Source: Parvularia atlantis
Taxonomy: Eukaryota > Opisthokonta > Rotosphaerida
Direction of reading: 5' to 3'
Length of the DNA: 23,032 nt
Assembly (NCBI GenBank): GCA_943704415.1
Contig: CALSCO010001426.1
Span: 1 to 23,032, forward strand
Shown here: piece after piece, positions 16,437 through 21,500 of the stretch
How positions within the stretch are numbered: the stretch's first letter is position 1
Layout: each line of letters opens with the position of its first letter
Notes under the pieces: model-generated
Told to the model about the DNA's origin: nothing
What the model saw: only the letters and a program-made list of their open reading frames with translations
Database searches by the model: none
Made by a program: the position numbers and the translations under genes

Positions 16437-17698
16437 CTATGCTGTCAGCTCCTTGCCCTTCTTGCCGGCGCGCTGAGGCGCGCAGAGTGTGAGTGCGCCA
16501 GCCACGCAAGCACACGGCCGCACGGGGCCAAACGCACGTCTTTGGCGAACTTTTCTGCCAGCTCGCGCTTGGTGTGCTCCTCGATCTCGCGCATCTGCTC
16601 CATCGTCAGGTCGACGTAGTTGTCGAGCCAGCAGAATATCTGCGCACGCGTGGGGCCGCTGCGTCGGCGCAAGCGCACCCGACGGGGCCAAGCGCGCAGA
16701 CACACCTGCCGGTGCAGCTTGAGCATCTGGTAGCGGCTCGTCTTGTGGATAAAGTTCTCGACGCGGTTCTGCACGCCCATCAGCTTGAACTCGACGGTGA
16801 TGAGCTTGTAGCAGCACATGACTTGCTGCATCGGCTAAGGTGCGCGCGTTCGCACACACGAACAGCGTCAGCGGCGGGGCGCTCGGCGGCGGTCGGCGCG
16901 GCCGGCGCACCTTTTGGCGCCAGCCGGGCGAGAGCTGGCCGCGGTCGGTCTTCATCGACTTGTACTTGCTCGGGTCGGTCTTCTCGTTGTAGTCCTTGGA
17001 CTCAACAGGGTCCTGCGAGGCGTGTGCGCGCGTGCGCTTGGTCAAGGGGGGGGGTGGCTGATGGGCGACGACAGTGGCGCAAAGGCGGCGCGAACGTTAA
17101 CGATGTCGATGTAGTCGACCGTCCGCTTGGCGAGCAGGTCGGGAGGAAGGTTGTGGATGTTCTCAGTCGTGCCGGCGTCTGGTGCGTGGCGCGTCTCGAC
17201 GATGAGCGAGAACTTGTCGTTCATGAACTGCGCGCCGGCGTGCGCGTGTGAGCGTCTGTGGCGTCGCTGGGAGGCGCGCACCTGGTTGGTCATGACGGTC
17301 TTGCAGTACGGGTAGGCATTCCACGCCTTCTCGTCAATGTTGAGCGCGCTCGAGGGCGCGAGCAGCCGGATCCATGTCGGCACGCGTGACGACAGGTGGT
17401 AGACCTTGTGAGTGAACTGGCCGGACTGTATGCGTGCGCGTGCGCGGGGTTGGTGTCGGCGTGCGCGCGCACTCGCACGGCGCACCGCGACCGCGTCCGA
17501 GTAGGGCTCGTTCACGAGGATCTCGAGGCCCTCCCCGCCGTGCGTCTCGTTCTGCGCGCGCGGGGATAGTCAGCAGCGCAGGCGACGCGCGTCACGCCGG
17601 CGCCGCACTTTGCTCATCTCGGCCACGCCGTACAACTGGCCGATCTGGTACTCCTGCACCGTGAGCGGCATGACAATGCGATACTCGATGACGATCAT
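16437..17698 (-). CDS. PITPN: phosphatidylinositol transfer protein, class I
   Basis: Eight exons on the minus strand: 17698-17609, 17551-17486, 17425-17282, 17227-17096, 17012-16911, 16834-16706, 16639-16538, 16472-16437; about 266 residues, against 271 in mammals. Such proteins exchange phosphatidylinositol and phosphatidylcholine between membranes and feed phosphoinositide signalling. The chain follows the START-like PITP fold from the first residue: IEYRIVMPLTVQEYQIGQLY, GGEGLEILVNEPY, FTHKVYHLSSRVP, WNAYPYCKTVMTN, VDYIDIVN joined to DPVESKDY, LSPGWRQK, CYKLITVEFK, VQNRVENFIHK, FCWLDNYVDLTMEQMREIE. A basic tail (RAGKKGKELTA) precedes TAG. ATG 17698 gives the standard MIVIEYR start. The intron at 17013-17095 is 83 bp with a G/C9 run; that at 16835-16910 ends TAG, or CAG if the exon starts at 16825. 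The donor at 17485 could be six bases upstream. Confidence 0.96.
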
Positions 17699-18320: not shown

Positions 18321-19125
18321 ATGGCGGCGAAGGCGCTTGCGGTTCTTCGCGACCGCGTGGCCGACGCGCGCGACGAGCTCGAGCGCCTGGGCGGGCTGCC
18401 GCTGGCGCGCCAGCAGGCCGTGCTGCACGCGGTCAAGAATACGATCGTCGAGGCGCAGCTCAAGGTGCGCGGCCGCCCCGCGCAGCCGCACGGCGCCCTG
18501 ACACGCCGCCGTGACAGCTCAACGCGCAGGCGGACGAGCTGCAGCGCGCGGACCGGCGCGAGACCGACCGCCTGCAGGCCGAGGTCTCGGCGGCCTTTGC
18601 GCTATTTGAGCGCGAGTCGCGGCGGATCATTACGGCCGTGCAGCCGGCGGGCGGGCAGCGCGGGCAGCAGCTCGGAGGCGCACTAGCCGAGCTAGCCGGG
18701 AGCGAGTCGCAGCCGCCGGCCTACCAGCTGCAGCCGCAGCAGCAGGTCCAGCAGGCGCACGGCATTGACCTGGACGAGTACACCGCGCGCGACGCCGAGC
18801 TGCACCAGCTGCACGTGGACCTGCAGGAGGTTTCGCTTATGTTTCGCGACCTGCAGGGTGCGGCGGCGTGCTGCGCGAGCGGTCCCGCGGCTCACGGCAG
18901 CGCCCAGTGCTCGTGCACAAGCAGCAGGACCAGCTGGATACGATCGAGGCGCACGTGACGCAGGCCGCGCAGGACACGGCCGGAGCGCGCGACGAGCTGC
19001 GCAAGGCCGGGGCGCTGCAGCGGCAGGCGCGGCGGCGAATGTGCTGCCTGGGCGCGGTGCTGTTTGTGGTGCTGGCCGTGCTCGTGCTGGCGATCGTGCT
19101 CGGCGTCGTTCTGGGGCGGCGATGA
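18321..19125 (+). CDS. syntaxin-type Qa-SNARE, C-terminally anchored
   Basis: Three exons (18321-18464, 18518-18857, 18908-19125) give about 233 residues. Qa-SNAREs sit on target membranes and form the four-helix bundle that drives vesicle fusion. The N-terminal 100 residues are helical and charged (DARDELERL, LQAEVSAAFALFE), like an Habc domain. A Gln-rich linker precedes the SNARE helix: RDAELHQLHVDLQEVSLMFRDLQ continues across intron 2 into VLVHKQQDQLDTIEAHV. The zero-layer Gln falls in HKQQ, where syntaxins have HEQG. Arg/Lys residues and CC then lead into one membrane anchor (VLFVVLAVLVLAIVLGVVLG) that ends the protein. It is somewhat short for a syntaxin (about 250-300), closest in style to the endosomal syntaxin 7/12/Pep12 group, but the subgroup is not certain. 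ATG 18321 is the only in-frame ATG before the helical region. Confidence 0.88.
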
Positions 19126-19170: not shown

Positions 19171-20239
19171 TCATGCGTGGCGCAGCTGCCACGGCGGGCC
19201 AAAAACGAGCACGTGGGCGAGGGCGCTGACGGCGATCAGCTCAAGCCCGAGCAGCGTCAGCGCGACCGCACACCCGCCCTGGAACGCGCCGTTCATGACG
19301 GTCTGCGCGCGGCGTCGCGCGGTCAGCCGGGCGCACGCGCGGCAGCTGGCGCGGTCGCGCGGCGCACAATGTATGACGCGACCAGATGCATCACGACGAC
19401 CGAGGCCGCCAGCGGCCAGCTGCGCTTGTAGAACGCCTCGAACGCGATGACCATCCAGCCGACGTGCATGAGTGAGAAGAGCATCGTCGTGAGCGCTGCC
19501 ACGTGTCTCAGATGGCGACGCTGCAGGCGGCGCGATCACGGAGCGGGCGCACCCAGCACGTAGTACTGCGACAGCGCGGGGCAGGCCGTGCTCGGCAGCA
19601 GGCCCGGCCCGGACGACTCGGCCAGGACGGAGATGTACGAAATGAGGCTGCTCATCATGCCGAAGCCGATGCCGCTCACTGCCGCGGCGTCCCTCAGCAC
19701 GCGTTGGGCGCACATGGGCGGGGCGCACCAAAGGCGTAATTGGCCTTGTTGTACTTGGACGTGGGCGTGGCCGAGACCATGTTGAGGCTCGGCTCAGCGC
19801 GCCTGGCGTACGCGAGTCGGCACGCCAGCGCCACCGCCAGAGCCGCCCGCACGCGCGCACCGGAAGACGACGAAGAAGAGCCAGCGGAAGAGCTCCTGGA
19901 AGAGGACCGACGCGACGATCGTGAAGTAGTACACGTCCCACAGCGGCGGGATGATGTACCAGAAGACGGACGCGAACAGGATGCTAACGAGCCAGAAGAA
20001 GGCGCTGCGGGGGGGCGCGCGCGCGCGCGTGTGTGAGCGACGTCGGCTCGTTGGCGTTCGCCGACCTCGAGATGAGCAGGATCACGAGCTGCGCGCTCGA
20101 CGCGACGTGCGTCACGAAGAGCGTCGCGAGCGGCCCGTACGCCGTCAGCAGGCAGCCGAAGAACGTCAGCAGGCCCACTGCGGGCGCGAGCGCGCGGGTC
20201 AGAGCGAGCGGCCAGACGCGGCGCGCGAGTGTACGCACT
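19171..20239 (-). CDS. APH1: APH-1, gamma-secretase subunit
   Basis: Seven exons on the minus strand: start base 20239, then 20177-20066, 20004-19861, 19802-19729, 19678-19553, 19495-19368, 19302-19171; about 238 residues. APH-1 is the seven-pass scaffold of gamma-secretase, which cuts membrane proteins inside the bilayer. The spliced chain reads GLLTFFGCLLTAYGPL, LLISSAFFWLVSILF, LFQELFRWLFF, VSGIGFGMMSSLISYI, SSGPGLL, ALTTMLFSLMHVGWMVIAFEAFYKR and VVMHLVASYI. The two membrane His residues important in human APH-1 are present (LMHV, VVMHL). In the segment-4 glycine motif the third Gly is Ser. No in-frame ATG precedes the conserved start; splicing the 61-bp intron 20178-20238 (GTGCGTAC to CGCAG) joins A to TG and creates MGLLTFFG. 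A longer leader exon therefore lies above 20239. Confidence 0.93.
20178..20238 (-). other. intron that splits the APH-1 start codon
   Basis: On the minus strand GCTAAGA is followed by the donor GTGCGTAC. The 61-bp intron has the usual length and ends CCCGCAG before TGGGCCTGCTG. Joining gives AAGATGGGC, whose ATG begins exactly where APH-1 proteins begin. The unspliced frame runs upstream without a suitable ATG near the conserved start. Confidence 0.75.
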
Positions 20240-20295
20240 CTTAGCAGTCGAGAGCTAGTTGCGACATACGCCGCATATCTTGTCTGTTTTCCGAG
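20240..20295. promoter_or_regulatory. 56-bp bidirectional start region, APH-1 and Rab
   Basis: The head-to-head gap between the APH-1 start base and the Rab ATG is 56 bp and clearly less GC-rich than its flanks (CATACGCCGCATATCTTG). It must serve as promoter or leader for both genes. The APH-1 leader exon lies here or inside the Rab gene. Confidence 0.55.
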
Positions 20296-21352
20296 ATGGC
20301 CGACGAGGATGCGCCGTATGACTTCCAGGCGCGTGCCGGGCGCGGGCGAGCCAAGCACAAACCCTGACGTGCGCGCGCACACACACGCAGATGAAGCTGC
20401 TGCTCGTCGGCGACATGGCCGTGGGCAAGACGTCAATCCTGCTGCGGTGTGCGCCCGGCGGGGGGCTAGCGTAGTCTCACGGCACACACGCACAGCTACG
20501 TCGATGAGAGTTTCCGTGCCATGTACATGTGCGTGCCGCGGGCGGGCAGCGCCTGCGCGGTGCTGAGCTGCGGGTGTGCGCACAGCTCGACGATCGGCAT
20601 CGACTTCAAGGTTAAGACGATCGAGGTCGAGGGCGTGCGCGTGCGGCTGCAGATCTGGGACACGGCCGGCCAGGCACGCGCTCCACCGCGGACGGTCGCC
20701 GGGCGCGCGCTCACCCCCCGCGCAGGAGCGATACCGGTCGATCGCGGCGTCGTACTACCGCTCGGCTATGGGCGTGCTGTTCGTGTACGACGTGACGAGC
20801 CAGAAGTCGTACGCGTCAATCCAGACCTGGCTGCGCGACACGTCGCAGAAGGTCGACGGCGGCCCGACGCCGCCCGTGATCAAGGTGCGCGCATCACTGC
20901 ACGCATCACGTTGCCCGCACACGCGCTCACACGGCGGCCGCAAGTACCTTGTCGGCAACAAGTGCGACCTCAACTCGCAGCGCGTGGTCGAGCAGGCGAC
21001 CGCGCAGGCCTTTGCGACCGAGCGTGGCATGAAGTTCTTCGAGGTGCGCGTGCGCCGCTGCGGCTGTTGCTGGGCTGTGAATACCCAGCCGCTGGGGCGC
21101 CGCAGGTGTCGGCCCGGGACGGGACAAACGTGCGCGAAGTCTTCCGCTCCATAGCACTGGACATCAAGCGGCAGCGTGTCGTCGACCCGCTGCCCGGCAA
21201 GAAGGTGTGCCCACGTGCACGCGCGCACGTTGCGCCGTGTGTGTGACACCGCGCAGCAGGAGGCGCTGCCCGGGCCCGCAGACGGGACGGTCAACGTTAC
21301 CCCGGCCGCGACCGCCGCGCCGCAAAACAGCGCGGAACGGTGTGCGTGCTGA
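20296..21352 (+). CDS. RAB: Rab-family small GTPase, C-terminal CAC prenylation motif
   Basis: Eight exons (20296-20328, 20391-20446, 20496-20528, 20586-20673, 20726-20884, 20945-21043, 21106-21204, 21257-21352) give about 220 residues. Rab proteins recruit effectors to vesicle membranes when GTP-bound. Spliced motifs are [19 protein letters not shown] (P-loop), [10 protein letters not shown] (switch I, typical of Rab1/8), WDTAGQERYRSI (switch II), [22 protein letters not shown] and VSARDGTNV. The protein ends ERCAC, a Cys-x-Cys signal for double geranylgeranylation. The P-loop has Met-Ala where most Rabs have Ser-Gly, which may affect GTP hydrolysis; the switch II Gln is kept. Introns 20329-20390 and 20674-20725 begin with GC, and that at 20885-20944 ends AAG and is stop-free in frame. 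ATG 20391 is an alternative start but would drop the usual residues before the first beta strand. Confidence 0.93.
20329..20390 (+). other. probable GC-AG intron in the Rab gene
   Basis: CAG is followed by GCGCGTGCC; the intron holds CCTGACG and ends CACGCAG before ATGAAGCTG. Splicing gives [12 protein letters not shown], the normal Rab N-terminus. It is less certain than the other GC-AG introns, because translation could begin at ATG 20391 instead. Confidence 0.65.
20674..20725 (+). other. GC-AG intron in the Rab gene
   Basis: DTAGQ ends at CAG, followed by GCACGCGC. The intron carries CTCAC and ends CGCGCAG before GAGCGATAC, giving the invariant DTAGQERYR. The only GT inside would leave a 31-bp intron and add seven residues into switch II. 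Confidence 0.85.
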
Positions 21353-21500
21353 GCGCGCCGCCGTGTTTTTTGCTACCGAAAGGATGCCCGCTGCGAGCAG
21401 ATTGACCAATGGCGAGGACGCACACAAAGCACAACGAGAGAGGGCGCAGGAGGAAATTGGAGTGACGGCACTACGGGGTCCCACGCGGCGACAGAGCCCG
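21353..21500. other. convergent 3' spacer between Rab and EF-hand genes
   Basis: A 148-bp non-coding gap with a T6 run at 21365-21370 and otherwise mixed sequence. No conserved 3'-end motif or gene was recognised. Confidence 0.7.

Follow-up and report, generated by a model that had tools for sequence, protein, structure and literature searches.

The APH-1 gene and its neighbours

The window, by which we mean the whole stretch of 23,032 nucleotides of Parvularia atlantis DNA that was analysed, carries a complete APH-1 gene of 238 amino acids on its minus strand (19171-20239), with six short introns of 61, 61, 58, 50, 57 and 65 nt in order. When the exons are joined, which was done by hand, they form a single frame of 238 aa that begins with the A at 20239 and the TG at 20177-20176 and runs to the TGA at 19171.

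The A at 20239 is the last base of the leader exon, and the spliced start would have the context TAAG-ATG-G, with an A at -3 and a G at +4. Intron 1 (20178-20238, 61 nt, GTGCGTAC...CGCCCGCAG) lies in phase 1 of codon 1, that is, after the first base of the ATG. Exon 2 (20066-20177, 112 nt) provides the TG of the start codon and goes on with GLLTFFGCLLTAYGPL...; it is followed by intron 2 (20005-20065, 61 nt), which has the weak donor GTCGGC. The remainder of the gene consists of exon 3 (19861-20004, 144 nt), intron 3 (19803-19860, 58 nt), exon 4 (19729-19802, 74 nt), intron 4 (19679-19728, 50 nt), where an AG is again followed by TG, exon 5 (19553-19678, 126 nt), intron 5 (19496-19552, 57 nt), exon 6 (19368-19495, 128 nt), intron 6 (19303-19367, 65 nt) and the coding part of exon 7 up to the TGA stop (19171-19302), all on the minus strand.

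The Pfam Aph-1 profile (PF06105) matches residues 3-224 of the protein with a score of 198.5 bits, compared with a curated cut-off of 25.6, and is covered from position 2 to position 220 of its 231 positions. Among solved structures, the nearest relative is APH-1A (PDB 5a63, chain C), with an E-value of 1.5e-29; we take it to be the human protein. The alignment includes residues 1-205 of the 238; the predicted Met1 pairs with residue 1 of APH-1A, and both Met1-Gly2 and the FFGC motif are aligned. Typical of APH-1 are a pair of conserved histidines, in transmembrane helices 5 and 6, and a GxxxGxxxG motif in helix 4. Both histidines and the first two glycines are aligned with those of APH-1A, and the third glycine is replaced by a serine.

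In the genome, Aph-1 was matched at one place only. A search for the other gamma-secretase subunits, with which APH-1 works, found presenilin at two loci and a match for nicastrin. PEN-2 had no match in the genome, and since the control set was equally without a match, this search is uninformative. The two presenilin loci (C372 and C261; L064-L067) belong to a genome of 16 Mb.

Divergent from APH-1 lies a Rab-like GTPase gene, modelled at 20296-21405 of the plus strand with an inner structure that is approximate. A gap of 56 bases separates its ATG from the A at 20239. As the predicted head-to-head gaps (n = 23, including APH-1/Rab) range from 1 to 720 bases, a gap of this size is not exceptional here. 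The Rab-like gene contains apparent GC-AG introns (20329-20390 and 20674-20725, plus strand): one has the form CAG/GCGCGTG...CGCAG and joins in frame to MKLLLVGD, and the second junction, called by homology, is GGCCAG/GCACGC...GCGCAG. On the other side, a predicted gene with two introns and a hydrophobic C-terminal tail (18321-19125, plus strand), presumably SNARE-like as judged by eye, is convergent with APH-1, the stop codons of the two genes being separated by 45 bases. The start of a further predicted gene (16437-17698, minus strand) resembles, as we presume, that of phosphatidylinositol transfer proteins.

Directly upstream of the split start there is a possible short ORF of 11 codons, MRRMSQLALDC (20241-20276, minus strand), which the mRNA would include only with a leader extending as far as 20276. 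A single base lies between its TAA and the split ATG, giving TAA-G-ATG once spliced. If it is transcribed, the two would possibly form a re-initiation arrangement.

Splice signals of the genome

The splice signals were first learned from 35 intron positions anchored by homology to Ras, kinase, APH-1 and presenilin proteins. The 35 intron pairs were derived from 66 matches (45 of 86 for Ras, 10 of 170 for the kinases and all 11 for APH-1 and presenilin), and those with a posterior of at least 0.9, 27 in number and with the APH-1 locus left out, made up a small training set. The large set is that of a two-strand gene model trained on 197,629 bases, namely the window and 55 of 67 loci, the other 12 being overlaps. 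Of 135 predicted genes, 125 passed the score cut of 20.

Among the 669 predicted introns, 511 have a GTGCG donor and 619 a CAG acceptor. Their median length is 59 nt (5th-95th percentile 47-100 nt), and 523 of them measure between 50 and 75 nt. CTGAC is present in 215 of the 669, versus 13 of 669 reverse-complement controls. The donor consensus (GTGCG) is strikingly GC-rich, and CTGAC or CTCAC appears as a branch-like motif in many introns.

With its GTGCG donor, its CAG acceptor and its 61 nt, intron 1 of APH-1 has the profile of a spliceosomal intron of this genome. It also contains a CTGAC whose A is followed by 21 nt, a distance within the usual range. The splice-site score of intron 1 corresponds to the 38th percentile of the 669 predicted introns. 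The donor is preceded by an unusual A at -1, a base found there in 51 of 669 introns, and with the small training set it scored 3.7, lower than 24 of the 27 training donors.

The split start codon

According to the original prediction, no in-frame ATG exists near the conserved N-terminus of APH-1, and a 61-nt intron is placed such that its removal creates the ATG exactly where APH-1 proteins begin. We could reproduce each of these points. The APH-1 frame is open and free of ATG upstream to 20418, the limit of the translation, and the first ATG of this frame in the unspliced sequence is found at 19296, past a stop. The coordinates of the intron are correct: the segment 20238-20178 parts the A (20239) from the TG (20177-20176) and lies inside the ATG. 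The position of the spliced ATG agrees with the pairing of Met1 and the first residue of APH-1A. We regard the split start codon as confirmed at the level of the sequence and of the gene model, from which we infer the splicing.

The two-strand model, which made no use of APH-1 homology and to whose 669 training introns APH-1 contributed 6, arrived in its last round at six introns and a protein identical to those of the hand model, and it called the split start in both its first and its last round. An earlier one-strand model fused APH-1 with the adjoining genes and did not call the split start. The two-strand model, for its part, joins one intron of the adjacent Rab gene wrongly, by which a homology-supported segment is lost, and for most genes its starts are predictions.

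How easily could such an arrangement appear by chance? Among 2000 dinucleotide shuffles of the 119 nt upstream, none produced a split ATG of equal quality; with the last 12 bases, containing the acceptor, left in place, 37 of 2000 did. The CTGAC branch motif is outside the shuffle score. When real leaders of other genes were combined with the APH-1 acceptor, none of 98 did as well, these being the genes out of 125 that have a full 119-nt leader. Furthermore, when the gene model was applied to the 124 other genes with the start of each one masked, it gave 4 of them a split start, so it does not make split starts freely.

The two-strand model finds 6.03 introns per kb of coding sequence in the window and the 55 loci. 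Taking the two positions inside an ATG, our own arithmetic gives an expectation of about 1.2% of genes with a start split by chance. A split start was called in 1 of 125 predicted genes, which is APH-1, and in 0 of 28 genes from another 53 kb of sequence, taken from 6 of the 7 loci L068-L074; this rate is rough, since the gene starts are predictions. Introns close to the start are common in this genome: first introns preceded by at most 15 coding bases are seen in 10 of the 121 intron-bearing predicted genes, APH-1 included.

Alternative explanations

The start codon would be unsplit if the intron began at a different donor, one that the original prediction leaves unmentioned, the GTATGT at 20269 (C/GTATGTC, 20263-20269, minus strand), which would join a contiguous ATG at 20276 to exon 2 and give a protein starting with MRLGLLTFFGC. 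Frame and acceptor are compatible with this structure, the model chooses this very donor when split starts are forbidden, and in many eukaryotes GTATGT serves well as a donor. In this genome, however, GTATG donors account for only 4 of 669, and the resulting gene model reaches 158.7 as opposed to 166.5 for the split one, which is 7.8 bits worse. It would also put two extra residues ahead of the position that matches Met1-Gly2 of APH-1A. On account of the rare donor type and the lower score we disfavour this donor and consider it unlikely.

There may also be no intron at all in this place. Translation would then begin at a GTG (20178-20176), or else one base of the assembly is wrong and the true genome has an ATG. 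The GTG is found exactly at the Met position, with a G at -3 and a G at +4, and if the assembly had a G at 20178 where the genome has an A, this one wrong base would be enough to hide a contiguous ATG. On the other hand, GTG starts are inefficient in the eukaryotic cytoplasm, and the intronless reading turns the A-preceded donor, the CAG, the CTGAC and the 61-nt length into coincidence, all of them together. The chance tests put numbers to this coincidence, the CTGAC aside: free shuffling never produced the arrangement in 2000 trials, shuffling around the fixed acceptor did so 37 times in 2000, and none of the 98 leaders of other genes did. Based on these shuffle and leader controls the unspliced GTG start was set aside, and we find the intronless reading quite improbable.

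A different kind of explanation leaves the gene structure unchanged and adds to it: the split start would be a true regulatory gate, in which the cell regulates how far intron 1 is retained and in this way controls APH-1 and, through it, the assembly of gamma-secretase. That unspliced RNA would have no proper start, as was originally proposed, is correct insofar as there is no in-frame AUG near the N-terminus; if intron 1 is retained, in-frame ATGs are available only from an internal Met that leaves 145 aa. The short upstream ORF that stops one base ahead of the AUG would also suit a gate. The proposal is weakened by the GTG at the Met position (GCA-GTG-GG), a near-cognate codon in good context from which RNA that retains intron 1 may leak. 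In the best-supported gene model a start codon arises only through splicing. The statement that splicing gates expression is true just in the way in which it would be true of every intron here. Each of introns 2-6, if retained, would likewise break the frame and shorten the protein (5 of 5). Intron 1 therefore has no special role as a gate, and we rejected gating as a special property of this intron. In addition, the splice signals of intron 1 are about typical (38th percentile), and the rate of split starts matches the chance expectation, which we count against a special regulatory role. All in all, a regulatory gate appears very unlikely.

A longer leader could begin at an ATG at 20416, in an exon antisense to the Rab gene that is spliced to 20177. 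On the small training set and by splice sites alone, three such models, whose introns measure 205, 181 and 211 nt, reach 12.2, 11.2 and 9.7, compared with 9.6 for the split start. With the larger set and no length term the values are 11.3, 10.8 and 7.2 against 14.2, and with the length term they are -7.4, -5.5 and -12.1 against 8.6, that is, 14 to 21 bits worse. Introns of at least 181 nt make up only 4 of 669, the longest having 200 nt (the limit of the model is 220), and these structures add an N-terminal tail and would have to be transcribed across the opposite Rab gene's first exons. We rejected the upstream ATG exons because of the larger-set scores and the intron length, and this reading is highly improbable. 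Equally hard to believe is a switch in which the split AUG, the upstream ORF and a divergent promoter shared over 56 nt together set gamma-secretase through the splicing rate and re-initiation, such that APH-1 would be made only from correctly initiated and spliced transcripts.

Discussion

The explanation that we consider very likely is the simple one: a normal APH-1 gene in a small, GC-rich and intron-dense genome, in which a constitutive intron happens to separate the A of the start codon from its TG. The spliceosome would remove the 61-nt intron 1 along with the other five introns, the mature mRNA would carry AAG-AUG-G, and ribosomes would start at the Met that is homologous to Met1 of APH-1A. 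The structure of the gene, its homology and its fit to the splice signals of the genome can be read from the sequence. Intron 1 would then be spliced, presumably constitutively. Its position is probably a by-product of the high intron density and not a regulatory switch; the split start would gain biological weight only if retention of intron 1 were regulated.

There is also a practical side. Annotation pipelines that demand a contiguous ATG would miss the APH-1 gene here or give it a wrong start. At a density of about 6 introns per coding kb, roughly one gene in 100 is expected to have a start codon split by chance, so split starts should be modelled explicitly in such a genome.

Compared with APH-1A (5a63, chain C), the homologue described here is somewhat shorter (238 versus 265 aa). 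The comparison with APH-1A is made at the level of the protein, whereas the interruption of the start codon by an intron is a property of the gene.

Introns that disrupt the start codon, in phase 1 or 2 of codon 1, are described as relatively rare in the cited portion of an earlier study (PMC1626468, 2006). An intron inside the ATG is common to that report and to our case. The subject of the paper, as far as this portion goes, is a phase 0 peak right after the ATG, and unlike the introns of this peak, intron 1 of APH-1 is in phase 1, between A and TG. PMC7055050, PMC2664464 and PMC10182648, in the portions consulted, deal with subjects other than split start codons.

For Yarrowia lipolytica, the cited part of another study (PMC13309789) gives 42 introns with a 5' splice site directly after the A, T or G of the start codon. 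This group shows high splicing efficiency and belongs to genes with the highest expression (PMC13309789). The number pools the three positions, and in that part of the source the share that follows A or T rather than G is not separated. As reported there, Yarrowia introns have a median length of 196 nt and are overrepresented close to the start codon (PMC13309789); introns in the genome studied here are shorter, at about 60 nt, and dense throughout, with no excess seen inside the ATG (1 of 125). In the light of the cited parts of both papers, the split start codon of APH-1 is a rare arrangement that is already in print (PMC1626468, PMC13309789).
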